A model generated the notes under the pieces. It was not told where the DNA came from and did no database searches. It saw only the letters and a program-made list of their open reading frames with translations. From NCBI RefSeq assembly GCF_029910095.1, contig NZ_CP094526.1, positions 434,001-498,000 on the forward strand: a stretch of DNA of 64,000 nucleotides. The letters are read 5' to 3'. The translations under genes and the position numbers were made by a program. The stretch is from Bradyrhizobium sp. ISRA464. Its GTDB lineage: Bacteria; Pseudomonadota; Alphaproteobacteria; Rhizobiales; Xanthobacteraceae. Numbering within the stretch: the stretch's first letter is position 1; each line of letters begins with the position of its first letter. Positions 33,613-48,959 of the stretch are shown in pieces.

Positions 33613-34065
33613 CGTCGCTGCCTCCTTGCTGGGGTCTTGCGGGCTATCCGAGGTGGCGGATCATCGCGGCGGCCCCGTGGTGAGGCTGTAAATTGACAAT
33701 CGCCTGACCCGGTTCCTCCGGCCTGCCACGGCCCTCTCGCGCGCTGCATCGTACGGAGACCCCGCCCCGAATGCGGAGCGACGCGATCCGCATCACGGCA
33801 CGAATCGCGGCCGGATCGAACGTCGGATGCGGCGATCGGGTCTTTCGGAAAGGTAAAAGCGGGTCCGTGAAACTACCGCGGTTGAGGCAGGCGTCGTCCC
33901 GTAAAAATATTGTAATTCGACTCAAATATGCGAGATTCGTTGCCAATCGGCGGTGATCTGCCTCTGCTTGGCCTGCCGGAACCGTAGATCACAGTTGCAT
34001 CGTCCGTATTTCTACGGGGTTCCGCGTTAACGCAGACACAAGTTCACCTTCGGTAAACCATACTT
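33613..34065. other. non-coding region before the LuxR-type gene
   Basis: 453 bases without a credible gene. The last 120 bases are AT-richer and contain the inverted repeat at 34004-34017. Probably holds the promoters of both flanking genes. Confidence 0.5.
34004..34017. promoter_or_regulatory. inverted repeat CCGTA-TTTC-TACGG (site A)
   Basis: Perfect 5-bp dyad, centre 55 bases before the LuxR-type start codon. One of four such sites in this region (see 35094, 39123, 44603). Confidence 0.65.
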
Positions 34066-34671
34066 ATGACGCAACACGACAATCGAGCCGAGGCCCGCCT
34101 CCCGACATGGATCGACGAGGCCATGCCGCTCGAGACCCCGCCGCTTGAGACCCAGAAGGTCGCCCCGCGAGCGCAGGTCACGGAGGAGGCTGGGGCCGCG
34201 ATCGTCCGCCAGTTCAATGGACCCGTGACGGCGCTGCTGCTCTATATGAATGAGCTCAAGCAGCACAGCCATCAGTTCGCGCAGACACCCGGCAACGGCA
34301 TTTACTTGCGGCAGGTCATCGAGAACGCACTCGAGCAGACCGAACGCGTGTCGGCGATGCTGAAGCAGATCTCCGATCTCTATCCGAATGCCGTGCCGGC
34401 CGCCGACTTCAAGCCGCTCCGCGCTGACAAGCCGATACGATCCTGTTCGCCCGAGGTGATGTTCGCGCCGGAGGCCGGCCGTAAGCCCTTGACGAAGCGC
34501 GAGCGCGAAGTGCTCAGCCTGATCAGCGACGGCTATTCCAACAAGCAGGGCGCGCTGCGCATGAACATCAGCCCGCGGACGTTCGAGAGCCACCGCGCCG
34601 AAGCCATGCGCAAGCTCGGTGCGCGCAACACCGCCGACCTCGTCCGCAAGGCTCTGCTGTACACCGCCTGA
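34066..34671 (+). CDS. LuxR-type regulator with a DHp-like N-terminal domain
   Basis: 201 residues. C-terminal LuxR/NarL helix-turn-helix (about 141-200): LTKREREVLSLISDGYSNKQGALRMNISPRTFESHRAEAMRKLG. There is no receiver domain. Residues 42-105 (AAIVRQFNGPVTALLLYMNEL ... LEQTERVSAMLKQI) look like the two-helix dimerisation domain of histidine kinases, where IAHDFNN-like sequence is expected, but the phospho-acceptor His is replaced (R48-Q49-F50-N51). It may be a phosphorylation-independent dimer. Its HTH closely resembles that of the FixJ-type protein at 44685, and both genes have the same inverted repeat before them. Confidence 0.82.
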   Translation: MTQHDNRAEARLPTWIDEAMPLETPPLETQKVAPRAQVTEEAGAAIVRQFNGPVTALLLYMNELKQHSHQFAQTPGNGIYLRQVIENALEQTERVSAMLKQISDLYPNAVPAADFKPLRADKPIRSCSPEVMFAPEAGRKPLTKREREVLSLISDGYSNKQGALRMNISPRTFESHRAEAMRKLGARNTADLVRKALLYTA

Positions 34672-34781
34672 GCGCCTTCGCCGCCACAGGTGGCGGCGAG
34701 AAACGGCTCGCATGCTCCGGGCTGCGCGTGCACACCGGCTGTCTTGCCGGAGACCGCCGCGGCGTGGCGGCGACTGGTGTC

Positions 34782-35030
34782 TCAGAGATAATCCTCTGCC
34801 GGAATGTGCATACGCGGCGTCGGCCGCGTCTTCGGCGCCGCGGCCGTCCGCTCTTCCGGAATGATCGTGATCACCCACATCGTCCCGACGTCACCCTTGC
34901 CTTCGACAATCGACCGCACGCGGCCGGTGATCGTCGCGCCGCCGAAGTGAACGGTGGCGGATCTGCCGCTGAACTGCGCAATACGGAGACGCCTGGCTTC
35001 CTTGTGGTCGGTCGTTTGATACGTGAACAT
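34782..35030 (-). CDS. small hypothetical protein (82 aa)
   Basis: Starts at the ATG at 35030, which has a GGGGGAG site; the open frame extends eight codons further. MFTYQTTDHKEARRLRIAQFSGRSATVHFGG then a beta-rich core ITGRVRSIVEGKGDVGTMWVITIIP and a Pro-rich end. Small beta-barrel-like protein of unknown role. The inverted repeat at 35094-35107 lies 70 bases upstream. Confidence 0.65.
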   Translation of the reverse strand: MFTYQTTDHKEARRLRIAQFSGRSATVHFGGATITGRVRSIVEGKGDVGTMWVITIIPEERTAAAPKTRPTPRMHIPAEDYL

Positions 35031-35093
35031 CGGCTCCCCCGCGCGTCCACGCACTGTGTGGATTCAATGTTATCCGACGGTGAAAATCGTGAG

Positions 35094-35107
35094 CCGTAGA
35101 AGTACGG
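35094..35107. promoter_or_regulatory. inverted repeat CCGTA-GAAG-TACGG (site D)
   Basis: Perfect 5-bp dyad between the Crp-like gene and the 82-aa gene, centre 70 bases before the latter's start codon. Confidence 0.6.
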
Positions 35108-35120
35108 CGTCGCGAGACGG

Positions 35121-35843
35121 TCACTTGTTGAAAGTCTCCTGACCATGGAGCAGCTGCGCGTACCGGGTCTTGACCGTGGCGTAGCACTCGCACGTGGTCT
35201 TGATCAGCCCGTCGAGATTGATGATCTCGATGTGACCGCGGCTGTAGTGGATGAAGTTCGCCTGCTGCAAGGTGTGGGCTACCAGCGACACGCTGTTGCG
35301 TCGGGCGCCGATCATCTGCGCTATCGATTCCTGCGTCAGGACGAACTTGTTGCTGCAGGCGAGATCGCGCGTTTGCAGCAGGCATCGCGCCAGCCGCGAC
35401 TCCACGGTGTGGGCAGCGTTGCAGCCGGCAGTCTGCTGGATCTGCGCGTAGACGGCGAGCCCGTGCCGCGTCAGCGCTGCGCGAAATGTCGGGCTCAGCC
35501 CGGCCGCCTTCCGCAAGGCCTCGACCTCGATCGTCGAGGCGACGCCCGGCACCAGCACCACCGCGCTGTTCAGCGTGGGAGCCTCGCCGAGCCCGGCGAA
35601 CGCACCGAAGATGCTGTCGCGGCCGACCATCGCGACCTGCACGTGCTCGCCTCGGGCGAGCTTGACCACCAGCGAGATCACGCCCTTGTGCGGCAGATAT
35701 GCGCGCTTGAGCATCTCGTCGGCTTCGATCAGCACCGTATCCGCAACCAGGTCGACGGTTTGCAGGTGCCGCCGGATCAATTCGAAATCGTTCGCCGACA
35801 GTGACGACAGGAAACCGTTAGGTGATCGCGAAGCCGTATCCAA
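35121..35843 (-). CDS. Crp/Fnr-family transcriptional regulator (paralog 1)
   Basis: 240 residues from a TTG at 35843. That start is chosen because GGAGG lies five bases before it and because it aligns with the start of paralog 2 (DTASRSPNGFL against SAVTRPPNRLL). A cyclic-nucleotide-binding fold (about 15-130) is followed by a Crp helix-turn-helix (LTQESIAQMIGARRNSVSLVAHTLQQANFIHYSRGHIEI). No FNR-type iron-sulfur cysteine cluster is visible. The tail TCECYATVK is shared with paralog 2. A third-party signal and its targets are unknown. Confidence 0.88.
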   Translation of the reverse strand: MDTASRSPNGFLSSLSANDFELIRRHLQTVDLVADTVLIEADEMLKRAYLPHKGVISLVVKLARGEHVQVAMVGRDSIFGAFAGLGEAPTLNSAVVLVPGVASTIEVEALRKAAGLSPTFRAALTRHGLAVYAQIQQTAGCNAAHTVESRLARCLLQTRDLACSNKFVLTQESIAQMIGARRNSVSLVAHTLQQANFIHYSRGHIEIINLDGLIKTTCECYATVKTRYAQLLHGQETFNK

Positions 35844-36001
35844 AGCAACCTCCAGCCTGCCGGCAAAGCTTGTCTCTGGCACCGACGCGCGCAGTCGTAC
35901 GCGCCCGCAACCTATCTTGGCACGTCTTGAGTTTAATAAAAATAGGTCTATTGCCGCATACTGTTGACCGCTGCGTCTGGGCTCGTTGCTCGCTCGCGCG
36001 A

Positions 36002-36712
36002 TCAATCCTCGGACCCAACCCATTGCGCGGCATACGCCTTGACCGTCGCGTAGCACTCGCAGGCAGCCTTCTGCAAACCGTTGACATCGGTGATTTCGAT
36101 ATGTCCGCGGCTATAGCGGAGGACGCCGGCCTGCTGAAATCCATGCGCGACGATCGAGACGGCATTGCGCCGGACACCGATCATCTGCGCCAGCATCTCC
36201 TGGGTCAGCGGCAACGCCTCGCTGCCGCACAGGTCGCGTGCGCGCAGCAGCCATCGCGACAGTCGCGCCTCGACCGGATGCGACACGTTGCACGCCACGG
36301 ACTGCTGCGCCTGTGCCATCAACGCCTGCTCATGGAGAGCGACCAGGGTTCGAAACGCGACTCCGCGCTCGGCCGCCTCGCGGAAATCCTCCGCCCGCAG
36401 CATCGAAGCCGTCCCCGGGACCGCGACGATCGCGTCCGTGAGCAGCGGGCGGCTGTGAAGCGCGGCGACCGCTCCAACGACGCCGTCGCGGCCGATCGTC
36501 GCGATCTCGACCGACTGTCCGTCGGACAAATTGACCATCAGCGAAATGATGCCGCCGTGCGGGAGATAGACCCGCTGCACCGGCGTGCCGGCGTTGGCTA
36601 GCACAGCGTCCTTGGTCAGTTCGACGGTTTCGAGAAGCGGGTGGAGTTGCGCGAACTCTGCCGCAGGCAGCGCTTGCAACAAACGATTGGGCGGACGCGT
36701 TACCGCAGACAT
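36002..36712 (-). CDS. Crp/Fnr-family transcriptional regulator (paralog 2)
   Basis: 236 residues from the ATG at 36712 with AGGAG. Same architecture as the preceding gene: effector domain (about 15-130) and HTH (LTQEMLAQMIGVRRNAVSIVAHGFQQAGVLRYSRGHIEI), ending ACECYATVKAYA. The two are close paralogs in tandem, 158 bases apart, probably a duplication; divergence is strongest in the effector pocket. Confidence 0.9.
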   Translation of the reverse strand: MSAVTRPPNRLLQALPAAEFAQLHPLLETVELTKDAVLANAGTPVQRVYLPHGGIISLMVNLSDGQSVEIATIGRDGVVGAVAALHSRPLLTDAIVAVPGTASMLRAEDFREAAERGVAFRTLVALHEQALMAQAQQSVACNVSHPVEARLSRWLLRARDLCGSEALPLTQEMLAQMIGVRRNAVSIVAHGFQQAGVLRYSRGHIEITDVNGLQKAACECYATVKAYAAQWVGSED

Positions 36713-37243
36713 TGGATCTCCTGCCGAGGGCGGGAGCACTACGGTCTCACATCACCTACTCTTGGCGTTTGGAACGGCAGCGAACATAGCCGGCCTGCGC
36801 AATTTTGCACAAGAGTTGCGGTACTCACTTTATACACCTAGACGGTAGAAAGTTGCGATTGGCTCGCGTTTTGCGCGAAGAGCGCATGCCTACGGCTGGC
36901 GAACGGTTTCGCCATTTCCGTGGCATTGTTGATTTTCTGTTAACGCCGTCGCTTGTCCCAACGACACGAGTCCGATCGCACTTCGATCGATCGGTCGAAT
37001 GGCGCGAAAGCCCGCACGCTGTACGCAATCTTTGGTGACTTGGCGTGCGTTCGGGCGCCGCTTGAACGCCCCTATATCGCAGGGCACAGGTTCCCCATGG
37101 ACTGACCTCGCGAGCGCTCTTCTGGGTATTAGTACGGAGGAGCTCTTTAACGAACGGGTAGCGCGGACGGGCCAGTGTCACACGGTCGCCGTGTGAAACT
37201 TGCGGCGTCGCGTCAATCGTGCTCATCCAGAAGGGTATCCAGT
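36713..37243. other. spacer before flagellin
   Basis: 531 bases between paralog 2 and the flagellin gene; no gene supported. A half-matching copy of the shared dyad (GGGTATTAGTACGG, 37124-37137; GTA-N4-TAC conserved) lies 110 bases before flagellin. Flagellar sigma boxes could not be placed with confidence. Confidence 0.45.
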
Positions 37244-38842
37244 ATGTCCGGCATCGTCCTTTCGGCTTCGGTCCGCCAGAATCTGCTTTCGCTGCAGTCG
37301 ACCGCCGATCTGCTCGCCACCACGCAGAACCGCCTTGCCACCGGCAAGAAGGTCAACACTGCGCTCGACAATCCGACCAACTTCTTCACGGCGCAGTCGC
37401 TCGACAACCGCGCCAGCGACATCAACAACCTGCTCGACGGCATCAGCAACGGCGTGCAGGTGCTGCAGGCCGCCAACACCGGCATCACCTCGCTGCAGAA
37501 GCTGGTCGACAGCGCCAAGTCGGTCGCCAACCAGGCGCTGCAGGCCGCCGTCGGCTATTCCCAGAAGTCTTCGGTGTCGACCGCCGCGATCACCGGCGCG
37601 ACTGCTGACAACCTCCTCGGCACAACCACCTACAGCAACGCCCAGCTTACCGGCTCCGTCGTCAACAACAACTTGTCGACGCCCGCTGCGATCACGTCGG
37701 CCACCAAGCTCGTCAGCGCGGCCAACTCCGACACCTTGGCGGCGACGCCGACCGGCGTCCTCACCGTGAACGGCAAGACGATCACGTTCTCGACGGCGCA
37801 GACCACCTCGACCACCGACGCGTCCGGCAACGTCACCCTCGGCACCGGTGCGGGCAGCACGCTGACCGTCGGCGACCTGCTCACGGCGATCGACGGCATC
37901 ACGGGTGCGGCCACCGCCTCCTCCGTGTCGGGCGGCAAGCTCCAGATCAGCACCGGCACCGCCCAGGATCTCGTGATCTCCGGCACCGGCACCTCGCTGA
38001 CCGCCTTCGGCCTGACCGCCGGCACCACCGCGCGCACCGCGAGCACCCCGCTGGGTGGCCTGATCCTGACGATCGGCGCGACCGGCAACGGCACCGCCAC
38101 CAACATCACCTTCGGCACCGGCGCGGGCCAGGTGAAGTCCCTCAACGACCTGAACACCGCGCTTGCGGCCAACAACCTGCAGGCCTCGCTCAGCTCGGCC
38201 GGTGCGCTCACCATCAGCACCACCAACGATGCCGCCTCCGCGACCATCGGCACGATCGGCGGCACGGCAGCCGGCGCCGGCAAGCTGTTCAACGGCCTGG
38301 CGGGCAGCGCCCCGGTGCAGGATCCGACCGCGCTGGCCAACCGTGCCAACCTGGTCGACCAGTACAACAACATCCTGGACCAGATTACCACGACGGCCCA
38401 GGACGCGTCGTACAACGGCATCAACCTGCTCAACGGCGATCAGCTCAAGTTGACCTTCAACGAGACGGGCTCCTCGACGCTGAAGATCCAGGGCGTGACC
38501 TTCAATGCCACAGGTCTCAACCTCACCAAGCTGACAGCCGGAACCGACTTCCTGGACAACGCTTCGGCCAACGCCACGCTGAAGACGCTCAACACCGCGA
38601 GCGGCCAGCTGCGGACCCAGGCGTCGACCCTCGGCTCGAACCTGTCGATCGTGCAGATCCGTCAGGACTTCTCGAAGAACCTGATCAACGTGCTGCAGAC
38701 CGGCTCGTCCAACCTGACGCTGGCCGACACCAACGAGGAAGCGGCGAACAGCCAGGCGCTGTCGACCCGCCAGTCGATCGCGGTGTCCGCGCTGGCGCTG
38801 GCCAACCAGTCGCAGCAGAGCGTTCTGCAGCTGCTCCGCTAA
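37244..38842 (+). CDS. flagellin
   Basis: 532 residues from the ATG at 37244 (MSGIVLSASVRQNLLSLQ). The N-terminal D0/D1 helices (about 1-110, GKKVNTALDNPTNFFTAQSL) and C-terminal D1/D0 helices (about 440-532, SIVQIRQDFSKNLINVLQ to QQSVLQLLR) are conserved. The Thr/Gly/Ala-rich middle (about 125-360) forms the surface-exposed D2/D3 part, large for flagellins and typical of Bradyrhizobium. Exported by the flagellar secretion system; no signal peptide. A strong terminator follows. Confidence 0.95.
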   Translation: MSGIVLSASVRQNLLSLQSTADLLATTQNRLATGKKVNTALDNPTNFFTAQSLDNRASDINNLLDGISNGVQVLQAANTGITSLQKLVDSAKSVANQALQAAVGYSQKSSVSTAAITGATADNLLGTTTYSNAQLTGSVVNNNLSTPAAITSATKLVSAANSDTLAATPTGVLTVNGKTITFSTAQTTSTTDASGNVTLGTGAGSTLTVGDLLTAIDGITGAATASSVSGGKLQISTGTAQDLVISGTGTSLTAFGLTAGTTARTASTPLGGLILTIGATGNGTATNITFGTGAGQVKSLNDLNTALAANNLQASLSSAGALTISTTNDAASATIGTIGGTAAGAGKLFNGLAGSAPVQDPTALANRANLVDQYNNILDQITTTAQDASYNGINLLNGDQLKLTFNETGSSTLKIQGVTFNATGLNLTKLTAGTDFLDNASANATLKTLNTASGQLRTQASTLGSNLSIVQIRQDFSKNLINVLQTGSSNLTLADTNEEAANSQALSTRQSIAVSALALANQSQQSVLQLLR

Positions 38843-38870
38843 GCGCTGCCGCGACAGGCATCGATATGAA

Positions 38871-38903
38871 GGCGGCGGAGAAAACTCCGCCGCCTTTGTC
38901 TTG
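38871..38903 (+). terminator. rho-independent terminator after flagellin
   Basis: Perfect 10-bp stem GGCGGCGGAG (38871-38880) / CTCCGCCGCC (38885-38894), AAAA loop, then TTTGTCTT. 28 bases past the stop codon. Confidence 0.88.
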
Positions 38904-39122
38904 CGCGCCTTCCACCTGGAGCGCGGTGCGCGATCGCGCCGACGTGCGCGTGTCGCGTCATGGCATGCTGCGGCCAGGCTTAACAGCCGCTTGTTGCAAT
39001 TTGATTCAATTCGCGGCGCTCGCCGGACGTTGTTCTACCTGCGCGAGTAGTAAGTGTCTGTTCTTTCGAGCGCGGCCGAGGCCGCAGAATGCATCTCCCA
39101 ACTCCTTGAAATGCCTCATGGT

Positions 39123-39136
39123 CCGTATTTGCACGG
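39123..39136. promoter_or_regulatory. inverted repeat CCGTA-TTTG-CACGG (site B)
   Basis: Dyad within the palindrome GTCCGT-N6-ACGGAC (39121-39138), centre 90 bases before the cheA start codon. Confidence 0.62.
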
Positions 39137-39219
39137 ACAGCAAAATTAACGTCGCCGTGAAGTTGGCGAGGTTATCGATAGGCGGCGACCATTCCGTAGC
39201 ACTTTGAGGGCCGATTCCG

Positions 39220-41928
39220 ATGGACGATTTGTTGCGCGAGTTCCTGACGGAGAGCAGCGAGAGCCTGGACACGGTCGACAACCAGCTGGTGCAGTTCGAG
39301 CAGGATCCGAACAACGCCAAGATCCTGGATAACATCTTCCGCCTGGTGCACACGATCAAGGGGACCTGCGGCTTCCTCGGGCTGCCGCGGCTGGAAGCGC
39401 TGGCGCATGCCGGCGAGACCTTGATGGGCAAGTTCCGCGACGGCATGCCGGTGACCGCCGAGGCGGTGACGCTGATCCTGTCCTCGATCGACCGCATCAA
39501 GGAGATTTTGGCCGGGCTCGAGGCCACCGAGGCCGAGCCCGCCGGCACCGACCGCGACCTGATCGATCAGCTGGAAGCCATGGTCGAGCGCGGCATGGCG
39601 GCGATGGCAGATGAGGCGGCGGTGCCGGTGGTCGAGGCGCCGCCGATGCAGCCGGCGGTGACCGCGGGCACGCTGGTGGCGCAGACGCTGGAGCGGCCGC
39701 TGCGTCCGGGCGAGGTCTCGCTCGACGAGCTCGAGCGCGCCTTCCGCGAGACCGCAACCGAGGTGGCGGTGCCGGCGCCCGTGGCCAGGCCCGCCGCGGC
39801 GCCTGCGGTTGAAGCCGCCGAGGCCGCGAAGAAGCCGGCGCGCAGGACCGCGGCCGCCGAGGCCGAGGTCGAGGGCGGCGACAAGATCGCCCACCAGTCG
39901 ATCCGGGTCAATGTCGACACCCTCGAGCACCTGATGACCATGGTCTCCGAGCTGGTGTTGACCCGCAACCAGCTCTTGGAGATCTCGCGCCGCAACGAGG
40001 ACACCGAGTTCAAGGTGCCGCTGCAGCGGCTCTCCAACGTCACCGCCGAGCTGCAGGAGGGCGTCATGAAGACGCGGATGCAGCCGATCGGCAACGCCTG
40101 GCAGAAGCTGCCGCGCATCGTCCGCGACCTCTCCGGCGAACTCGGCAAGCAGATCGAACTCGAGATGCACGGCGCCGACACCGAGCTCGACCGCCAGGTG
40201 CTCGACCTGATCAAGGACCCGTTGACGCACATGGTGCGCAACTCCGCCGACCACGGCCTGGAGACCCCGGCCGAGCGGGCAGCGGCCGGCAAGGGCGAGC
40301 AGGGCACGATTCGCCTCTCTGCCTATCACGAGGGCGGCCACATCATCATCTGCATCGCCGACAATGGGCGCGGCCTCCACACCGAGCGGATCAAGGCCAA
40401 GGCGCTCTCGAACGGCCTCGTCACCGAGGCCGAACTCGAGAAGATGACGGAAGCGCAGATCCACAAGTTCATCTTCGCGCCGGGCTTCTCCACCGCCGCG
40501 CAGGTCACCTCGGTGTCCGGCCGCGGCGTCGGCATGGACGTGGTGCGCACCAATATCGACCAGATCGGCGGCACCATCGACATCAAGAGCGTGGCCGGCG
40601 AGGGCGCCTCCGTCACCATCAAGATCCCGCTGACTTTGGCGATCGTCTCCGCTTTGATCGTGGAGGCCGGCGGCGACCGCTTCGCGATCCCGCAGCTCTC
40701 GGTGGTCGAGCTGGTGCGGGCCCGCGCCAACTCCGAGCACCGCATCGAGCGCATCAAGGACACCGCGGTCTTGCGGCTGCGCAACAAGCTGCTGCCGCTG
40801 ATCCATCTCAAGAAGCTGCTCAACATCGACGACGGCGCGACCACCGAGGCCGAGCACGGCTTCATCGTGGTGACCCAGGTCGGCAGCCAGACCTTCGGCA
40901 TCGTGGTCGACGGCGTGTTCCACACCGAGGAGATCGTGGTCAAGCCGATGTCGACCAAGCTGCGCCACATCGACATGTTCTCCGGCAACACCATTTTGGG
41001 CGATGGCGCGGTGATCATGATCATCGACCCCAACGGCATTGCCAAAGCGCTCGGCGCCTCCGGCTCGGCGGCCCATGCCGTGGCCGACGACAGTGCCGCT
41101 TCGCATGCCTTAAGCGGCGAGCAGCTGACCTCGCTCTTGGTGTTCCGCGCCGGCACCAGCCAGCCCAAGGCGGTGCCGCTCGGCCTCGTCACCCGGCTCG
41201 AGGAGATCGCCACCGACAAGATCGAGCTCAGTAACGGCCGCCACATGGTGCAGTACCGCGAGCAGCTGATGCCGCTGGTGCAGATGAAAGGCGTCCAGGT
41301 GCAGACGCAGGGCGCGCAGCCGATCCTGGTGTTCGCCGACGACGGCCGCTCGATGGGGCTCGTGGTCGACGAGATCATCGACATCGTCGAGGAGCGGCTC
41401 AACATCGAGGTCGCGGGCGCGCAGGACGGCATTTTGGGCTCGGCGGTGATCAAGGGCCAGGCCACCGAGGTGATCGACGTCGGCCACTTCCTGCCGATGG
41501 CGTTTGCCGACTGGTTCTCGCGCAAGGAGATGCGGCCGTCGGCCAGCGCGCAGTCGGTGCTGCTGGTCGACGACTCCGCGTTCTTCCGCAACATGCTGGC
41601 GCCGGTCCTGAAGGCCGCCGGCTACAAGGTGCGGACCGCGCCAAATGCGCAGGAGGGGCTCGCCGCGCTGCGCTCGGGGCAGGCCTTCGACGTCGTGCTG
41701 ACCGACATCGAGATGCCCGAGATGAACGGCTTCGAGTTCGCCGAGAGCATCCGCTCTGACCACAATCTGACCGGGCTGCCGATCATCGCGCTGTCGGCGA
41801 TGGTGTCGCCGGCGGCGATCGAGCGCGGCCGGCAGGCCGGCTTCCACGATTACGTCGCCAAGTTCGACCGTCCCGGGCTGATCGCGGCGCTGAAGGAGCA
41901 GACCGCCGAGATCCGGAAAGCGGCCTGA
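39220..41928 (+). CDS. cheA: chemotaxis histidine kinase CheA with C-terminal receiver domain
   Basis: 902 residues. HPt domain with phospho-acceptor H44 (RLVHTIKGTCGFLG), an Ala/Pro linker, dimerisation and HATPase domains (about 230-470; VRNSADHGLETP, DNGRGLHTE, GRGVGMDVV), then two CheW-like modules (about 475-610 and 630-770). A CheY-like receiver (about 785-902) follows, with phospho-acceptor D829 in VVLTDIEMPEMNG. The fused receiver may act as a phosphate sink or an adaptation element. First gene of the che operon; cheW follows after 23 bases. Confidence 0.95.
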   Translation: MDDLLREFLTESSESLDTVDNQLVQFEQDPNNAKILDNIFRLVHTIKGTCGFLGLPRLEALAHAGETLMGKFRDGMPVTAEAVTLILSSIDRIKEILAGLEATEAEPAGTDRDLIDQLEAMVERGMAAMADEAAVPVVEAPPMQPAVTAGTLVAQTLERPLRPGEVSLDELERAFRETATEVAVPAPVARPAAAPAVEAAEAAKKPARRTAAAEAEVEGGDKIAHQSIRVNVDTLEHLMTMVSELVLTRNQLLEISRRNEDTEFKVPLQRLSNVTAELQEGVMKTRMQPIGNAWQKLPRIVRDLSGELGKQIELEMHGADTELDRQVLDLIKDPLTHMVRNSADHGLETPAERAAAGKGEQGTIRLSAYHEGGHIIICIADNGRGLHTERIKAKALSNGLVTEAELEKMTEAQIHKFIFAPGFSTAAQVTSVSGRGVGMDVVRTNIDQIGGTIDIKSVAGEGASVTIKIPLTLAIVSALIVEAGGDRFAIPQLSVVELVRARANSEHRIERIKDTAVLRLRNKLLPLIHLKKLLNIDDGATTEAEHGFIVVTQVGSQTFGIVVDGVFHTEEIVVKPMSTKLRHIDMFSGNTILGDGAVIMIIDPNGIAKALGASGSAAHAVADDSAASHALSGEQLTSLLVFRAGTSQPKAVPLGLVTRLEEIATDKIELSNGRHMVQYREQLMPLVQMKGVQVQTQGAQPILVFADDGRSMGLVVDEIIDIVEERLNIEVAGAQDGILGSAVIKGQATEVIDVGHFLPMAFADWFSRKEMRPSASAQSVLLVDDSAFFRNMLAPVLKAAGYKVRTAPNAQEGLAALRSGQAFDVVLTDIEMPEMNGFEFAESIRSDHNLTGLPIIALSAMVSPAAIERGRQAGFHDYVAKFDRPGLIAALKEQTAEIRKAA

Positions 41929-41951
41929 CGGGACCCAGGGAAACAGGAGCG

Positions 41952-42425
41952 ATGACCAGCAAGAGCGAAGCGAGCGAAGGCATCATGGCCGAATACATCA
42001 CCGCCGTGATCGGCGGGCAGCTGTTCGGGCTGCCGATCTCGCGGGTGCAGGACGTGTTCATGCCGGAGCGGCTGACGCGGGTGCCGCTGTCGTCGGCGGA
42101 GATCGCCGGCGTGCTCAACCTGCGCGGCCGCATCGTCACCGTGGTCGACATGCGCGCCCGGCTCGGCCTGCCCCGGGCCGGCGACGGCAAGGCGATGATG
42201 GCGGTCGGCGTCGACCTGCGCGGCGAATCCTACGGGCTGCTGATCGACCAGATCGGCGAGGTCCTGCGGCTGCCCGAGGCGGGCCGCGAGGACAACCCGG
42301 TCAACCTCGATCCCCGCATGGCCAAGCTCGCCGGCGGCGTCCACCGTCTCGACGGCCAGCTCATGGTCGTCCTCGATGTCGATCGCGTGCTCGAATTGAT
42401 GCCAGACGCCAAGGCTGCTGCGTAA
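41952..42425 (+). CDS. cheW: chemotaxis coupling protein CheW
   Basis: 157 residues behind ACAGGAG. Single CheW/SH3-like domain: FGLPISRVQDVFMP, LNLRGRIVTVVDMRARLGL and YGLLIDQIGEVLRLP. It bridges receptors and CheA at the inner membrane. Cotranscribed with cheA. Confidence 0.95.
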   Translation: MTSKSEASEGIMAEYITAVIGGQLFGLPISRVQDVFMPERLTRVPLSSAEIAGVLNLRGRIVTVVDMRARLGLPRAGDGKAMMAVGVDLRGESYGLLIDQIGEVLRLPEAGREDNPVNLDPRMAKLAGGVHRLDGQLMVVLDVDRVLELMPDAKAAA

Positions 42426-42469
42426 TACGCTGGCCGCGAAGACGGCTGGTTCAACAAGGAGGCAAACAC

Positions 42470-42859
42470 ATGAAGACATGTCTTGTTGTCGACGATTCCG
42501 GCGTGGTGCGGAAGATCGCACGCCGCATCCTCGAAGGAATGGATTTCACTGTTATCGAGGCCGAGGACGGCGAGAAGGCGCTCGAGGCCTGCAAACGCGG
42601 AATGCCGGACGCGGTGCTGCTCGACTGGAACATGCCCGTGATGGACGGCTTCGAATTCCTGGTGCAGCTCCGCCGGATGCCCGACGGCGATGCACCGAAA
42701 GTGGTGTTCTGCACCACCGAGAACGGCATCGATCACATCTCGCGTGCGCTGCATGCCGGCGCCAACGAGTACATCATGAAGCCGTTCGACAAGGACATCG
42801 TCACCGCGAAGTTCCAGGAAGTCGGACTGCTTGCACTCGATCTGCCCACCGAAGCCTGA
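42470..42859 (+). CDS. cheY: CheY-type single-domain response regulator
   Basis: 129 residues, preceded by AAGGAGG. Receiver only: acidic pair in VVDDSGVVRKI, phospho-acceptor D52 in AVLLDWNMPVMDGFEF, the Thr in VVFCTTENG and Lys in YIMKPFDK. It carries phosphoryl groups from CheA to the flagellar motor. Confidence 0.94.
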   Translation: MKTCLVVDDSGVVRKIARRILEGMDFTVIEAEDGEKALEACKRGMPDAVLLDWNMPVMDGFEFLVQLRRMPDGDAPKVVFCTTENGIDHISRALHAGANEYIMKPFDKDIVTAKFQEVGLLALDLPTEA

Positions 42860-42895
42860 CGCCAGTTTCATCTTTTTTGCCCTTGCGAGGCTCCA

Positions 42896-43765
42896 GTGAC
42901 GCCCCCCGACTATGAGTATCTGCGTAAGCTCCTGAAGGATCATTCAGGGCTCGACCTGTCCGCAGACAAGCAGTACCTGATCGAAAGCCGCCTGCTTCCG
43001 CTGGCGCGCAAGTCCGGTTTGTCCGGCATCCCTGACCTGGTGACGAAGATCAAGGGCGGTTCGTCCTCGCTCGTCGTCCAGGTGGTCGAAGCCATGACCA
43101 CCAACGAGACCTTCTTCTTTCGCGACAAGGTGCCGTTCGATCACTTCCGCAACACGATCATGCCGGAGCTCCTGAAGGCGCGTGCCGCACGCAGGAGCGT
43201 CCGGATCTGGTGCGCCGCGGGATCGACGGGTCAGGAGCCCTATTCGCTGGCGATGTGCCTGAAGGAGATGGGCGCAGTACTGGCGGGTTGGCGGGTCGAG
43301 ATCATCGCGACCGACCTGTCGCAGGAGGTGCTGGAGAAATCGAAGGCCGGCATTTACAGCCAGTTCGAGGTGCAGCGCGGACTGCCGATCCAGATGCTGG
43401 TCAAGTACTTCAAGCAATCGGGCGAGTTCTGGCAGATCAATCCTGAGTTGCGCACGATGGTGCAGCACCGCCAGCTCAACCTGCTGCACGATTTTTCCCA
43501 GCTCGGCGCCTTCGATGTGATCTTCTGTCGCAACGTGCTGATCTATTTCGATCAGGACACCAAGATCAACGTCTTCAACCGCCTCGCCAGATCGATGGAG
43601 GCCGACGGCTTCCTGGTGCTGGGCGCCGCCGAAACCGTGGTCGGCCTGACGGACGGATTCAAGCCGTTCCCCGAACGGCGCGGCCTGTATCGGCCGAGCG
43701 GCGCGCGGACGTCGGCGGCAGGAGCCGTCCTGCCGAGGGTCGCCGCCATGGCAGCGAGGCTTTGA
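42896..43765 (+). CDS. cheR: chemotaxis protein methyltransferase CheR
   Basis: 289 residues starting with GTG (GCGAGG upstream). Helical N-terminal domain then SAM-binding fold: VRIWCAAGSTGQEPYSLAM, IIATDLSQEVLEKSKAGIYSQFEVQRGL and FDVIFCRNVLIYFD. It methylates glutamates of chemoreceptors. No cheB or receptor gene is in the window. Confidence 0.95.
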   Translation: MTPPDYEYLRKLLKDHSGLDLSADKQYLIESRLLPLARKSGLSGIPDLVTKIKGGSSSLVVQVVEAMTTNETFFFRDKVPFDHFRNTIMPELLKARAARRSVRIWCAAGSTGQEPYSLAMCLKEMGAVLAGWRVEIIATDLSQEVLEKSKAGIYSQFEVQRGLPIQMLVKYFKQSGEFWQINPELRTMVQHRQLNLLHDFSQLGAFDVIFCRNVLIYFDQDTKINVFNRLARSMEADGFLVLGAAETVVGLTDGFKPFPERRGLYRPSGARTSAAGAVLPRVAAMAARL

Positions 43766-43767
43766 CC

Positions 43768-44088
43768 ATGACGGAAGATGGCAAACTCGTCGAACGCGTC
43801 ACGTTCAGCAGGGGCTTTGATGTCTGCATCATGGCCATCGACGGCACCTGGCGGCGCGACTGCCGGCTCGACGCCATCTCCGACACGGACGCAGCCCTCA
43901 CAGTGGAAGGTTCCATTCAGGGGCTCAATCTAAAGGAGTTTTTCCTGCTGCTGTCGTCGACCGGGCTCGCCTATCGCCGTTGCGAACTGATCCGTGTCAA
44001 CGGCACCGAACTGGACGTCGGCTTCCTCAAGGGCAAGCCGAGCAAGAAGCGATCAGCCTCCGGCGAAGCCGTCCGGGTCGGGGCCTGA
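43768..44088 (+). CDS. PilZ-like domain protein
   Basis: 106 residues; starts two bases after the cheR stop, so coupled to it. A single small beta-barrel is predicted: RDCRLDAISDTDAALTV ... LKEFFLLLSSTGLAYRRCELIRVNGTELDVGFL. The order of motifs resembles PilZ, but the RxxxR and DxSxxG c-di-GMP-binding motifs are not clear, so it may be a degenerate PilZ. Confidence 0.7.
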   Translation: MTEDGKLVERVTFSRGFDVCIMAIDGTWRRDCRLDAISDTDAALTVEGSIQGLNLKEFFLLLSSTGLAYRRCELIRVNGTELDVGFLKGKPSKKRSASGEAVRVGA

Positions 44089-44229
44089 CCTAGCCCGCGC
44101 GTTCCGTCAAATCTGCCATCATCCCGAACTGAGCGCGGAACAGATCGCGATCTTATGTGTTGGAGCGCCAATGGCGCAATCTGCGTGACAGCCGTCCGCC
44201 GCGGCGCGGTCGTTTCCGGACCGGCGGAT

Positions 44230-44538
44230 GAGTTCAGGATGCGTGTCGGGGTCTCGGAGTCGAGCAGCCGACCAAGCGCGGCACCGAGGCCAACGTCACA
44301 GGCTTTCAAGGCAGTGGATGCGACCATATAGCGTGGCATAACATCGTCCAGGACGAAGATGTTGCTGGCGGCGTCCTGCTCGGCGAGCAGGGCTTCACGC
44401 GCAATCACGGACTCGATCAGCCGTAGGCTCGCCTGGACGTGCCCGATCAGACGCAACCAGGTCCGCCACAATCATGTTGTAGGGATCATTGCCTTCGTCC
44501 GAGCACGCCGCAACGTTATCCGCCGCTGCATTTCTCAT
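44230..44538 (-). pseudogene. small hypothetical gene broken by a one-base frameshift
   Basis: From the ATG at 44538, with a GGAG site, the frame reads MRNAAADNVAACSDEGNDPYNMIVADLVA, then turns to nonsense and stops. If one base is dropped near 44451, it continues as LIGHVQASLRLIESVIAREALLAEQ and SNIFVLDDVMPRYMVASTALKACDVGLG for about 65 more residues. Both halves have ordinary protein composition. So either a true frameshift mutation or a sequencing error. The 3' end is uncertain. It is divergent from the FixJ-type gene and shares its regulatory spacer. Confidence 0.5.
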
Positions 44539-44602
44539 GCATGTTTCTCCACGACCTCCACTTTTAGGGAATGCGGTGCTACTTGTGCGTTAAGCGGACG
44601 TC

Positions 44603-44616
44603 CCGTACAAATACGG
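44603..44616. promoter_or_regulatory. inverted repeat CCGTA-CAAA-TACGG (site C)
   Basis: Extended dyad CCCGTA-CAAA-TACGGG (44602-44617), centre 75 bases before the FixJ-type start and 71 before the start of the divergent broken gene. Confidence 0.68.
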
Positions 44617-44684: not shown

Positions 44685-45326
44685 ATGCACATGGCTGAGA
44701 ATGGCGTTCCCCGCGGGGAGATTTTCGTAGTCGACGACGATCCTGCCGTTCGCGAGACGCTTTCCGTGGTTCTGTCGACAGCCGGTTACAAGGTGATCTG
44801 TTTTGCGGACGGCGCCGCGCTGCTTTCCGTTGCGCGAAGCAGGACGCCGGCGTGCATCCTGCTCGACGTGCACATTCCCGGCAAATCGGGTCTCGACATC
44901 CTGAAGGAACTGCACGGCGAGGACTATCCGGCGCCGATCTTCATGATCTCGGGGCAGGGCGATATCGCGATGGCGGTCAGCGCCATCAAGAACGGCGCGC
45001 TGGATTTCATCGAGAAGCCGTTCCGCGGCAACGAGATCGTCGCCCGGTTGAATGAAGCGATCGAGGCCTACACAAGGCGCCGCACCGAGACTTCGGCGTC
45101 GCGCATCGCCTCGCTGCATTTTCCGGGGCGCGAGCCGCTGACCCGCCGCGAGCGCGAGGTGCTCGAGCAGTTCACTTCAGGCGCGTCCAACAAGGAGGCC
45201 GGACGTCATCTCGGCATCAGTCCGCGCACCATCGAGGATCACCGCGCCAACATCATGAAGAAGCTCGGGGCGCGCAACGCCGCCGACCTCGTCCGCATCG
45301 TGATGACGGCACAGCGCCAAGCCTGA
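44685..45326 (+). CDS. FixJ/NarL-family response regulator
   Basis: 213 residues; MHMAEN or MAEN start. Receiver domain (about 12-130): FVVDDDPAVRETL, phospho-acceptor D61 in CILLDVHIPGKSGL, conserved Lys in DFIEKPFRG. A LuxR-type HTH (about 148-205) follows: LTRREREVLEQFTSGASNKEAGRHLGISPRTIEDHRANIMKKLG. The partner kinase may be the hybrid kinase encoded next door, or another. HTH nearly matches that of 34066-34671. Confidence 0.93.
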   Translation: MHMAENGVPRGEIFVVDDDPAVRETLSVVLSTAGYKVICFADGAALLSVARSRTPACILLDVHIPGKSGLDILKELHGEDYPAPIFMISGQGDIAMAVSAIKNGALDFIEKPFRGNEIVARLNEAIEAYTRRRTETSASRIASLHFPGREPLTRREREVLEQFTSGASNKEAGRHLGISPRTIEDHRANIMKKLGARNAADLVRIVMTAQRQA

Positions 45327-45444: not shown

Positions 45445-45520
45445 GAGCATGATCTCCGCGCAAACGCGTTCCGCGTTTGTCGCGAGGGAGAACCGCTTCA
45501 CACTTTTCCGGATCATGCTC
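45445..45520. repeat. palindromic repeat, GAGCATGATC family
   Basis: Arms GAGCATGATC (45445-45454) and GATCATGCTC (45511-45520), perfect 10 bp, with a further inner hairpin (CAAACGCG/CGCGTTTG). The last base is the first base of the stop codon of the hybrid kinase gene. Confidence 0.88.
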
Positions 45521-48500
45521 TAATCGGCGAGCGCCTTGCGGATCATCGCCGCGAGTTCCGACTTGCGATAGGGCTTGGGTAGCAGCAGCACGCCTTCGTC
45601 CAAGCGCCCGTGATGGATGATCGCATTCTCGGTGTAGCCCGAGGTGTAGAGGACCTTGAGGTCGGGCCTCATCCTGAAAATCCGTTCGGCAAGCTGGCGG
45701 CCGTTGAGCCCGGGCATGATCACGTCGGTGAACAGCAGATCGAAGGGCTTGCGGGCCTCGACGATCGCGAGCGCTTCATTGGCATTCGCGGCCTCCAGCG
45801 TGACATAGCCGAGACCGTGCAGTTGTGCGAGCACGTAGTCGCGGACCAGCTTGTCGTCCTCGACCACCAGGATCGTCTCGTGGCCGCCCTCGAATTCCAG
45901 CGCCGCCGCCTCCTCGGCCGCGACCCCCGTGCCGGAAGCCGCCGGAAGATACATGCGGATCGTCGTTCCGTATCCGTGCTCGCTGTAGATCTTGATGTGC
46001 CCGGCGGACTGCTTGACGAAGCCGTAGACCATGCTGAGGCCGAGCCCGGTGCCCTTGCCGGGGCCCTTCGAGGTGAAGAAGGGATCGAACACCTTGTCGA
46101 GCATGTCGGCGGCAATTCCCGTCCCCGTATCGCTCACTGCGATCATGGCATAGGGACCGGGCCGCACATCGCCATGCGAGCCGGCATAGCTCTCGTCGAG
46201 CACGACGGATGCCGTCTCGATCGTGAGCCGGCCGCCCTGCGGCATGGCATCGCGGGCGTTGAGCGCGAGGTTGAGCAGGGCGTTGGCGAGCCGATTGGGA
46301 TCGACGACCGCCAGGCACGTCTCGTCCTCGAAGGCCGACTGGATCTCGACCTGCTCGCCCAGCGTCCGGCGCAGCAGCTTGGTGGTGTCGATGATCAGTG
46401 CGTTGACGTCGATCTCGCGCGGCTCGAGCGGCTGCTTGCGGGCGAACGCCAGCAGTTGCTGGGTGAGATCGGCGCCGCGCGACGCGGCCTCGTCGATCAT
46501 CCGCGTGATCGCCGCGAGCTGCGGCTGGTCCTTTACGGCGTCGGCCAGGATCTCGATCGTCCCGGTGACGACGGTGAGGATATTGTTGAAGTCGTGCGCG
46601 ATGCCGCCGGTGAGCTGGCCGACCGCTTCCATCTTCTCCGACTGCCGGATCCGATCCTCGGCGGCGATCTTTTCGGTGAGATCGCGGATGAAGCCGTTGA
46701 ACACGAATCCATCGCGGGTCTTCAGTGCCGAGATGCTCAGCTCGGCGGTGAATTCGCTGCCGTCACGGCGCCGGATCTGCGCCTCGCGGCGGGGTTGGCG
46801 CACCCGTTCGCCGCCGGAGCTCAGGAATCCGGCGAGCGCCGTCCTGAGCGGGCCGTCCGGCCGGCCCATCAGGTCGAAGACGTTGCGGCCGATCGCCTCC
46901 TCGCGGGTCCAGCCGAAGATCGTCTCCGCCTGGGTATTCCAGTCGCGGATGATGCCGAACTGGTTGATCTGCACGAAGGCGTCGAGCGAGCCGTCGATGA
47001 TGCCCCTCGCGAGCTGCGCGCTCTCGCGCAGGCTTTCCTCGGACTTGCGGCTCTCGGTCATGTCGTACGCCGACTTGACGATGCCGATAATGGCGCCCGA
47101 CAGCGCCTTGATCGGCGCGGTCGAGAGCGACACGTCGACCGTGCTGCCGTCCTTGCGCAGGCGCACGGTCTCGCTTTCCTCGATCCGTTCACCGCGGCGG
47201 ATCCCGCGAATGATATCGTCGATCTCGGTGCGCCGGTCCGGGGGCACGATCAGGGAGATATGTCGGCCGACCGCCTCGTCGGCGCTGTAGCCATAGAGCC
47301 GCTCGGCAGCCGGGTTCCAGCCGGTGATGATCCCCTCGAGCGACATCGTGATGATGGCGTCGTTCGAGGATTCGACAGCCGATGCGAACAGGTACTCGCG
47401 CTCGGCATGGTGGTCGCGCGCCGCCTCGGTGCGGCGATGCTCGGCGGCCTCGCGCTCGAGCGCCACCGTCTTGGCGTTGGCCTCGTCCATCACGCGGACG
47501 AAAGCGCGCGCCAGCACGCCGGTCTCGCCGCCGGCGTCGACCGGAATCGCCGCGGTGCCCTTTTCGCCGACGCGCTCGACGGCGGCGGTCAGTCGCGTGA
47601 TCGGCCGGGTCAGCGATCGCGCGATCAGCCAGGCCAGGACGCCCGCGCCGAGCACCGCCAGCAGGCCGACCTGGATCGAACTGTTGCGGATCGCCATCGC
47701 TGGCGCCATGAAAACGGTATTGGGAACGGCTTCGATCACCGCGATCCATTGATGTCGGGCCAGCGTGGCCGGCGCGAGCGCGATCCCGATCCATTGTCCG
47801 GCGGGATCGCTGCTCATGGTCGAGGTGCTTTGCGTGGCTCCGCTCGCGGCTGACAGCGCAGGCATGTCGCGCTGCCAACTCGCCGGCCGGCCAAGCTGGG
47901 CGCCGAATTCGCGGCTGCGGCCAGGGTTCACGAGATAATTGCCGCTCGCGTCGACCACATAGGCCTGTTCGCCGGGCCGCACCGAGGCGCGAACGCGCTC
48001 GAGCACCGGCCGCATGTCGATATTGACGATGACGATCCCGAACGGCTTGCCGTCAGGCGCCGCGACCGGCTTGGCGACCATCATGGTCGGCGCCGGCGGC
48101 GTGTCGATGACGCCAGCCTCCTCGTTGAGGCGGATTGGAGAGACGTAGATGCCGTCGGCTCCCAGATTGATCGTGTCGCGGAAATAGGCGGCGTCGCCGA
48201 CCTGCTTCAACTCCGCCTGCGGCACGATGCGGGCGGTACCGTTCGGACCGGAGCGGTCGACACGGACGAGTTCGCGATGACCGTCCGCAACTCCGATGAA
48301 GCGGAGTGAATAGGCGGGCTTCAGCGCCATCTGCACGGCGAGCCGGCCTTCCAGGCGCTCGCGCCACACCGCCTCCGTGGTGCGGTCGACAGGATCGATC
48401 CCGCCATTGAGCCGCGCGCGCATCAAGCCGTCGACGGCGGCGAGGTTATGGAACGTCGTGATGTCGGCGGGCGCGCTCTGGACGTACGCCTCGAGGGCAG

Positions 48501-48651: not shown

Positions 48652-48959
48652 CGGCGCGGTCGCAGCTTTCCGCTTGTCCGGGCGCGCGAGGTGATGGGCC
48701 ACCCGATACTCATGCGAATCCGCGGCCGGTTGCACTGCCGTTCCCCGCGCCCGGATGTGTGCTCTCGCCCGCCTCGAACTGTTCCTGCAGGCGAAGGATC
48801 CGCTTGACCGTCATGTTCAGTGAAGTCCGCCTCCTGATCGACGGGCTAGGACACCCCAGCCAAATTCGAGTATATGCACCGCGACCGATTTATAAGCCCT
48901 TTCCGGCAACCGAAACACTAGCCTATGCAGGCGACCTCGACAGATATGGGGCCCCGATC
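48652..48959. other. divergent spacer before the dehydratase gene
   Basis: 308 bases. The hybrid kinase frame could extend to 48735. The rest, AT-richer near 48840-48940, should hold the promoter of the dehydratase gene; no boxes identified. Confidence 0.4.

Follow-up and report, generated by a model that had tools for sequence, protein, structure and literature searches.

A dyad followed by a second word at a fixed 9-bp phase marks promoters of a flagellin and chemotaxis cluster in Bradyrhizobium and relatives and may be read by a FixJ-type regulator

Introduction

VisN and VisR are regulators of the LuxR-type class, the FNR/FixK box reads TTGAT-N4-ATCAA, and the CtrA operator is a TTAA-N7-TTAA pair with TTAAC as its half-site. 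VisN/VisR head the control of motility and chemotaxis in Sinorhizobium and Rhizobium, and according to a 2021 review B. diazoefficiens encodes no visNR (PMC8429497). Section 12 of that review names no regulator for the polar flagellum or chemotaxis in crop-symbiont Bradyrhizobium, and it describes LafR, the Rem homolog of B. diazoefficiens, as controlling the lateral flagella and not the polar flagellum (PMC8429497). For FixJ of the FixLJ system, the consensus words GTAMGTAG and GTAGTTTCCC have been given (PMC4999443), the word at R. palustris fixK is GTACGTAG (PMC4999443, PMC13327599), and at S. meliloti fixK the protein protects positions -69 to -44 (PMC4999443).

Here we describe a cluster of flagellin and chemotaxis (che) genes whose promoters carry the symmetric dyad CCGTA-N4-TACGG. 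Like FixJ, the lead candidate for its binder combines a receiver with a GerE helix-turn-helix (HTH). The FixJ words given above share only the GTA core with the dyad, and the CCGTAN4TACGG sites found here match neither GTAMGTAG nor GTAGTTTCCC. Unlike in the FixLJ system, the operator is symmetric and lies at a fixed phase to a TTAACG word, the candidate targets are chemotaxis genes and not fixK/nif, and the regulator gene lies beside the che genes. VisN/VisR differ in that the lead candidate here, whose gene adjoins cheR, combines a receiver with an HTH. LafR is comparable as an orphan response regulator for Bradyrhizobium motility genes, but the account of it in section 12 of PMC8429497 includes no comparable operator. 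The FNR/FixK box has the same 5-N4-5 geometry but different arms, and the Crp-type genes of the cluster mostly lack the dyad and do not track it.

Results

Dyads and genes of the cluster

The window, that is the whole 64-kb stretch of Bradyrhizobium DNA that was analysed, contains three perfect copies of CCGTAN4TACGG, against a mean of 0.01 in 100 dinucleotide shuffles, none of which reached three. This bears out an earlier note on this DNA, which had placed dyads at four promoters: they are perfect at the LuxR-type gene, the small gene and the FixJ-type gene, and have one mismatch at cheA. The same note had described a half-matching copy before flagellin, and this copy indeed has two mismatches with the right arm intact.

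34004..34017, plus strand: dyad CCGTATTTCTACGG, perfect, upstream of the LuxR-type gene
35094..35107, minus strand: dyad CCGTACTTCTACGG (as read on the minus strand), perfect, upstream of the small gene
37124..37137, plus strand: flagellin half-dyad GGGTATTAGTACGG, two mismatches, right arm intact
39123..39136, plus strand: dyad CCGTATTTGCACGG, one mismatch in the right arm, upstream of cheA
44603..44616, no strand assigned: dyad CCGTACAAATACGG, perfect, in the region that separates the divergent small gene from the FixJ-type gene

The claim that no such site exists elsewhere in the window is true of perfect dyads only, since one further site with one mismatch lies at 11220-11233. The distances to the start codons, given earlier as 55, 70, 90 and 75 bases, are all shorter when measured: 48 bases at LuxR, 63 to the ATG or 39 to the upstream GTG at the small gene, 83 at cheA, and 74 or 68 at FixJ, which has two possible ATGs. 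The genes are as follows.

34066..34671, plus strand: LuxR-type gene encoding 201 aa, with a GerE HTH and, by prediction, a two-helix hairpin at the N-terminus
34782..35054, minus strand: small gene with no family assigned, 90 aa from the GTG or 82 aa from the ATG at 35030
35121..36056, minus strand: Crp/Fnr-type gene 1 (start uncertain), HTH_Crp_2; promoter without dyad in most loci, an internal negative control
36002..36739, minus strand: Crp/Fnr-type gene 2, HTH_Crp_2; promoter without dyad in most loci
37244..38842, plus strand: flagellin gene, assigned by sequence
39220..41928, plus strand: cheA, with Hpt, HATPase, CheW and receiver domains
41952..42425, plus strand: cheW-like gene, an open reading frame assigned to CheW by sequence and matched in relatives
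42470..42859, plus strand: cheY-like gene, from profile search
42896..43765, plus strand: cheR, from profile search
44232..44538, minus strand: divergent small gene, 102 aa in the relative G010, frame interrupted in the window
44691..45326, plus strand: FixJ-type response regulator with receiver and GerE HTH, the candidate binder
45520..48735, minus strand: sensor histidine kinase-like gene, assigned by sequence only, a possible partner of the FixJ-type regulator

The element is a composite

At every dyad listed above, and at the flagellin half-dyad, TTAACG or TTCACC follows after exactly 9 bp. The element is thus a composite, dyad-N9-TTMAC(G), and not the dyad alone, and the description of the flagellin copy is to be amended to include the same phase and TTAACG word as at the other sites.

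34027..34032, plus strand: TTAACG, 9 bp past the LuxR dyad
35079..35084, minus strand: TTCACC, 9 bp past the small-gene dyad
37147..37152, plus strand: TTAACG, 9 bp past the flagellin half-dyad
39146..39151, plus strand: TTAACG, 9 bp past the cheA dyad
44588..44593, minus strand: TTAACG, 9 bp past the FixJ-side dyad, directed away from FixJ

ACGGN9TTAACG was observed four times against 0.03 expected. The degenerate form GTAN4YACGGN9TTMAC has five matches in the whole 8.46-Mb genome, all of them within the 10.6-kb cluster, and its reversed control has one; the dyad with TTMAC at 9 bp is therefore cluster-specific in this genome. The earlier note had taken the dyad at 44603 to serve FixJ. Instead, dyad and TTAACG there face the divergent small gene, and because of this direction of the box at 44588 autoregulation by FixJ is not obvious.

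We also considered whether TTAACG might itself be the main control element, as a CtrA-type half-site under cell-cycle control with the dyad as a modulator. TTAAC is the CtrA half-site word, and four window promoters share TTAACG at an identical phase, with TTCACC in the fifth. By eye, however, the window promoters have single TTAAC words only and no TTAA-N7-TTAA pair, and the box of the small gene is TTCACC, so that we regard this reading as highly improbable.

The dyad alone is not specific to the cluster

The 8.46-Mb genome has 21 perfect dyads, whereas the reversed-pattern control gives 53 matches. When genes are called mechanically, six of the 21 dyads fall inside a reading frame by more than 90 bases, and two others are at most 50 bases from a called start. 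From the control and the in-gene copies it follows that the dyad alone is neither over-represented nor cluster-specific. The dyad count was below the reversed control in 12 of 13 genomes of the genus examined. The relaxed form YCGTAN4TACGR occurs 7-19 times per genome where a close FixJ homolog is present (ten genomes), and 10, 3, 2, 2 and 1 times in five genomes without one; its reversed control exceeds the true pattern in all 15. These reversed-control counts weigh against the dyad alone.

In two genomes of the genus g36, G145 and G128, nine of 20 further YCGTAN4TACGR sites examined lie in reading frames by the mechanical call and one is at most 24 bp from a called start. Of the remaining ten, two precede a chemoreceptor by coordinates (L280, L290), two have no called gene and six stand before unclassified genes. 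One of the nine in-frame sites, L284, may lie before a chemoreceptor gene for which the called start is too early. In this genus the dyad alone predicts the regulon poorly.

The chemoreceptors of the window's genome were considered as targets of perfect dyads, but by coordinate comparison none of the 13 PF00015 places has one upstream; the regulon in this genome may therefore extend little beyond the cluster. In 12 upstream stretches covering all 13 chemoreceptors, sites with at most two mismatches lie near the called start in two: a two-mismatch dyad 126 bp upstream of the start (L294) and a one-mismatch dyad 58 bp inside the called start (L296).

Conservation in related loci

Conservation was scored in 80 loci of named records, most of them from Bradyrhizobium, counting dyads with at most one mismatch and at most 260 bp from the start. 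The LuxR promoter has the dyad in 75 of 80 loci (61 of these with the box at 9 bp), the other five having none at fewer than two mismatches. It is found in 80/80 loci at the small gene (65 with the box) and in 42/42 at cheA (41 with the box), the other 38 loci ending before cheA. All nine named-record loci that reach FixJ have it there, 71 ending before; this count comes from a separate scan, since the FixJ row of the first was mixed with LuxR HTH matches. The dyads are thus kept in orthologous promoters, as the earlier note would have it. Flagellin was scored by the composite, since a dyad-only scan favours low-mismatch dyads without a box. Among 54 flagellin starts, the window included, the best summed mismatch score for dyad and TTAACG was 2 in 34, 3 in nine and 4 to 8 in 11, with no score of 0 or 1.

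The adjacent Crp promoters carry the dyad in only 1/74 and 2/73 usable loci. This bears on whether a Crp/Fnr-type protein binds the dyad, a reading suggested by the shared geometry of the FNR/FixK box and by the two HTH_Crp_2 genes that adjoin the 35094 dyad. We consider it very unlikely. Besides the scarcity of the dyad at their own promoters, the arms are CCGTA and not TTGAT, and no Crp genes were found in the FixJ neighbourhoods examined from other genera. More or less distant Crp1 homologs were found in 11 of 12 genomes searched (Crp1 query only), but G109, with no Crp1 homolog at E<=1e-25, keeps a one-mismatch dyad.

The arms are more uniform than the spacer at LuxR, the small gene and cheA (identity 0.94-1.00 vs 0.66-0.89, for sites preselected at one mismatch or fewer). 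At FixJ the spacer identity is 1.00 across nine Bradyrhizobium-type sites, so that arms and spacer are indistinguishable there. With 5-6 pairs and a four-base loop, the dyad could also fold as a small RNA hairpin, a leader or terminator and not protein-binding DNA, and such a hairpin would likewise allow the FixJ arms to change together between genera, as they do from CCGTA/TACGG to TCGTA/TACGA. The low variation of the arms relative to the spacer argues against this, as does the FixJ dyad and box facing the divergent gene. Furthermore, the constant 9-bp distance to TTAACG points to a promoter, in which case the dyad would be untranscribed. A hairpin is therefore scarcely credible.

Across genomes, perfect composites number 3-7 in six Bradyrhizobium-genus genomes, where the LuxR-type gene is present, vs 0-4 in nine other FixJ-bearing genomes; two of the 15 genomes of FixJ-bearing genera have none. 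Composites in other genomes, among them genomes of related genera, include five before chemoreceptor genes and one before a STAS gene.

The FixJ-type and LuxR-type proteins

The FixJ-type protein has a receiver and a LuxR/GerE HTH (PF00072, 7.6e-27; PF00196, 6.2e-19), as in the NarL/FixJ type. A homolog search gave 4540 matches among 7998 scored, and the names listed were unspecific, such as response regulator, LuxR family or FixJ family. Homologs of at least 74% identity have an upstream dyad with at most two mismatches in 16 of 17 genomes from five genera, perfect in seven of the 17. The 33 more distant homologs that were examined include none with CGTAN4TACG and five with a two-mismatch site. 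The recognition helix reads SPRTIE[D/Y]HRANIMKK in 16 of the 17 close homologs and SPRMIEDHRANIMKK in one; in the 13 of the 33 distant homologs that were compared, it is SPRTIEVHRARIMEK in 12 and SPRTIEVHRSRIMEK in one. The close homolog in G087 has only a three-mismatch site, though its recognition helix is the same.

The LuxR-type protein has a GerE HTH (PF00196, 1.9e-17) and, unlike a quorum-sensing LuxR, no autoinducer-binding domain at E<=1. Its N-terminus is predicted as a two-helix hairpin and falls short of a DHp domain, with a HisKA score of 14.2 bits (cut-off 26.9; E 0.047). Residue 48, the putative phospho-His place, is R in 37 of 40 aligned orthologs, with one L, one H and one S. 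The recognition helix, SPRTFESHRAEAMRK, is the same in all 40, which were picked from 80 and range down to 51% identity. A structural model has mean pLDDT 70.9 and pTM 0.35, with residues 1-33 and 110-135 below 50. A structure search with this model gave 467 matches, none at E<=0.001, leaving the hairpin without an identity; the best 50 of the 467 are mostly LuxR/FixJ-type HTH proteins.

Discussion

On balance we favour the view that the dyad serves as operator for the FixJ-type response regulator, whose gene closes the che cluster. The earlier note had proposed one operator for the LuxR- and FixJ-type HTH proteins alike. The like recognition helices and conserved promoters agree with this, but across genera it is the FixJ-type protein and not the LuxR-type protein that tracks the dyad. 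The circuit it had drawn between flagellin, chemotaxis and regulators is supported by the shared operator at cheA, flagellin, LuxR and FixJ, which is near-absent at the Crp promoters.

The LuxR-type protein could instead be the principal reader, with the FixJ-type protein as target or minor partner. This would suit the presence of the dyad before its own gene in nearly all loci, its invariant recognition helix and the higher number of composites in LuxR-bearing genomes. It is nevertheless unlikely: in genus g36, six genomes with a FixJ match gave no full-length LuxR-type match, and five of the six keep the dyad at FixJ. In one of them, G145, the composite at FixJ is perfect, and the one at cheA has two mismatches and exact phase. 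Furthermore, some loci keep other dyads while the LuxR dyad has two mismatches, and LuxR homologs of 41-43% identity in three other genomes have no dyad with one mismatch or fewer in the approximately 3.5 kb around them. More probably, the LuxR-type protein acts as a second reader of the dyad.

Going beyond what is observed, namely the element, its constant phase, its conservation and the genes around it, we propose that a dimer of the FixJ-type protein would bind CCGTA-N4-TACGG and activate, not repress, a promoter that starts with the TTAACG box, 9 bp past the dyad. Were TTAACG to replace the -35 hexamer, the dyad centre would lie near -52, a position near the S. meliloti fixK footprint of -69 to -44 (PMC4999443). 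In Bradyrhizobium, the LuxR-type protein (34066) would read the same sites through its similar recognition helix and feed back on its own promoter, and its DHp-like N-terminal hairpin may let it help the FixJ-type protein or compete with it. The regulon would then comprise the flagellin/che cluster together with chemoreceptors and chemotaxis-associated genes that vary between species. As a bolder and doubtful extension, the che-encoded FixJ-type regulator might be the missing master switch of chemotaxis and the cluster flagellin in Bradyrhizobium and related genera. The LuxR-type protein, a "kinase stump" in which a kinase-like dimerisation hairpin is joined to a LuxR HTH with no receiver or kinase domain, would sit on the same composite operator and use the hairpin to capture or compete for the FixJ-type receiver. 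If true, the circuit would have two heads: a former kinase stump, now a transcription factor, would tune a response regulator at the sites that both occupy.

Searches of open-access literature, with most subscription papers and all preprints outside their scope, listed no title or abstract opening that describes the element, and no paper containing the dyad written as CCGTAN4TACGG or CCGTANNNNTACGG.

In Bradyrhizobium and its relatives, a dyad with a second word at 9 bp marks promoters of a gene cluster for swimming and chemotaxis, and the composite word may be usable as a probe when chemotaxis genes are sought in several genera. Given the operator, the phase of its promoter and one candidate gene, the question of which regulator governs chemotaxis and the polar flagellum can be put to a direct test. 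A regulator encoded in the cluster itself probably docks at this dyad, which would help to explain how chemotaxis is switched on in these soil bacteria.

The dyad and its companion box

The earlier note had placed one CCGTAN4TACGG operator before four regulators or operons of the cluster, and a pattern search recovered it at all four, in perfect form at three and with a single mismatch at the other, where 0.01 perfect copies are expected in the window (mean of shuffles).

34004, perfect dyad, LuxR-type gene
35094, perfect dyad, small gene
39123, dyad with one mismatch, cheA
44603, perfect dyad, between the FixJ-type gene and a small divergent gene

A further one-mismatch dyad, CTGTAGGGGTACGG, lies at 11220-11233, distant from the cluster. 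Across the host genome (8.46 Mb, one contig, of which the window spans bases 434001-498000), 21 perfect dyads were found against 53 for the reversed-pattern control; a mechanical gene call puts six of the 21 inside reading frames by more than 90 bases and another two no further than 50 bases from a called start. The dyad is therefore significant within the window but not over-represented genome-wide.

When the promoters were aligned by the dyad, a second word, here called the box, was found at constant phase, and dyad and box together are referred to as the composite.

TTAACG, 9 bases past the dyad: LuxR-type gene, cheA, the flagellin half-dyad and, on the minus strand, 44603
TTCACC, 9 bases past the dyad: small gene promoter

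In the window ACGGN9TTAACG has four occurrences where 0.03 are expected, a count that is no independent test since the pattern was derived from the window itself. In the whole genome, GTAN4YACGGN9TTMAC matched five times, always within the cluster, and its reversed control once. Two or three bases past TTAACG a GTA/GTG word recurs, as CCGTGAA (39155-39161), CGGGTAGC (37155-37162) and CAAGTAGC (44578-44585, minus strand), with roughly three turns of the helix between it and the first CCGTA; it is perhaps a third half-site.

Conservation at orthologous promoters

From one LuxR-type protein scan of named genomes, in which the closest named relatives found were Bradyrhizobium, 80 of 164 loci were kept, and a dyad was counted if it had at most one mismatch and lay no more than 260 bp from the start. 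The dyad proved to be conserved before the LuxR-type gene in 75 of 80 loci (61 of these with the box at 9 bp, and some of the 75 counting a second, more distant upstream dyad), before the small gene in 80 of 80 (65 with the box), before cheA in 42 of 42 (41 with the box; the other 38 loci end short of cheA) and before the FixJ-type gene in nine of nine (seven with the divergent composite; the other 71 end short of FixJ). Among usable loci, the adjacent Crp-type promoters carry it in 1 of 74 and 2 of 73, and regional similarity is thus not the cause of this conservation. The right arm CACGG of the cheA copy is kept in the consensus of the loci.

Mean pairwise identity at sites selected to have one mismatch at most, the arm values being partly so by construction
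LuxR-type gene: arms 0.94, spacer 0.66
Small gene: arms 1.00, spacer 0.89
cheA: arms 0.99, spacer 0.86
FixJ-type gene (nine sites): arms 1.00, spacer 1.00
Flanks: 0.43-0.60

The arms are above the spacers at the LuxR-type gene, the small gene and cheA, and not at FixJ within the genus; between genera, the spacer at FixJ does differ. In six loci (L071, L073, L074, L075, L080 and L085) a second perfect dyad, CCGTAAAACTACGG, stands 148-166 bp before the LuxR start and the nearer dyad has one mismatch, a possible case of tandem operator turnover.

The dyad is real and conserved, but its second half, nine bases and a TTMAC-type word, had been missed, and the composite is the more specific element.

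The composite and the dyad in other genomes

Outside the window's genome, with 19 genomes searched, the composite matched 38 times. These genomes come nearer to an independent test, although some promoters of four of them (G002, G008, G009 and G010) had been inspected before the pattern search.

The 38 outside matches, assigned by position and downstream gene, several by sequence resemblance rather than by family search
LuxR-type gene, 4; small gene, 4; cheA, 4; flagellin, 1; FixJ/divergent site, 7
Chemoreceptors with an MCPsignal domain, 5
PAS protein with a sub-threshold MCP match, 1
STAS gene, 1
Protein with a sub-threshold Cache match, 1
dCache/HAMP protein, 1
Remaining nine: DUF6894, 1 (by likeness); short unnamed reading frame, 3; DUF3422, 3 (one tested, two by likeness); fatty-acid hydroxylase, 1; facing away from a DUF6894 gene, 1

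At least one match was present in 13 of 15 genomes of genera with a close FixJ homolog; the search gave none in G128 and G070, which belong to such genera, and none in five genomes of other genera.

In G008, a relative in which 35 chemoreceptor places were found, at least 3 of the 18 perfect dyads stand before chemoreceptor genes at distances of up to 215 bp, whereas none of the 13 such places in the window's genome has a perfect dyad. Beyond the cluster, the regulon thus varies between species. Dyads conserved in at least two of five compared genomes precede an HD-domain response regulator/STAS pair, a Cache-PAS-GGDEF gene, a PAS histidine kinase, and DUF1223 and DUF6894 genes. Conserved dyads were seen near a DUF1223 gene in locus L001 and its orthologs L037, L039 and L041, and near a 78-aa DUF6894 gene in L005 and its orthologs L157, L179, L186 and L192.

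Candidate readers

The LuxR-type protein had a match at E<=1e-15 in 18 of 149 family genomes, ten covering most of the protein (seven in the window's genus, three elsewhere at about 43%) and eight the HTH alone. The FixJ-type protein is widespread, with 93 of the 149 at E<=1e-40. Among 17 FixJ homologs of at least 74% identity, 16 have an upstream dyad with at most two mismatches, 70-118 bases before the match, seven of them perfect. CGTAN4TACG was found upstream of none of the 33 more distant homologs examined; since five of these have a two-mismatch site, three at 85-106 bases upstream, a weak ancestral form of the dyad is possible there. Six genomes of a related genus (g36) have a FixJ match; five of them keep the dyad at FixJ, and in none of the six was a LuxR-type match of full length seen. 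The composite of G145 is without mismatch at FixJ and carries two, in exact phase, at cheA. In the FixJ neighbourhoods examined, a search for Crp genes found none. The recognition helix of the 17 close FixJ homologs differs from that of 13 distant ones at three positions (D/Y vs V, N vs R, K vs E), and that of the LuxR-type protein is invariant in 40 aligned orthologs. Given these correlated distributions of homologs, dyads and helices, the best case is that the FixJ-type protein would be the older reader and the LuxR-type protein a later co-reader.

The LuxR-type protein (34066-34671) has an unusual kinase-stump/HTH architecture, with a predicted DHp-like helical hairpin and without a receiver, kinase or autoinducer domain. 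Its N-terminus has two long helices by structure prediction (35-66 and 77-105) and a sub-threshold HisKA match. A phospho-accepting histidine is not evident: residue 48, the expected position by our own placement, is R in 37 of 40 orthologs and L, H and S in one each. The combination of DHp-like stump and HTH suggests that it may contact a receiver.

Proposed promoter architecture and implications

Should TTAACG substitute for the -35 hexamer, the centre of the dyad would fall near -52. Since PMC4999443 gives FixJ protection at fixK as -69 to -44, activation from this position would, by analogy, be reasonable. Alternatively, the box may be a CtrA-like half-site, although by eye a second half was not seen at it. 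The FixJ-side site points to the small divergent gene (44232-44538, minus strand), which has two overlapping frames in the window and is intact in the relative G010 (102 aa); either the gene is interrupted in the window or the assembly contains an indel.

In B. diazoefficiens, visNR is stated to be absent and LafR to control the lateral and not the polar flagellum (review, PMC8429497). Expression of the primary flagellum is constitutive according to PMC5996035. A search of open-access literature gave no paper whose title or opening abstract lines describe the dyad or composite. The composite is real and conserved, and would be a promoter element of chemotaxis genes in a response-regulator regulon; with a strong candidate for its reader, it opens a question of rhizobial motility to testing.
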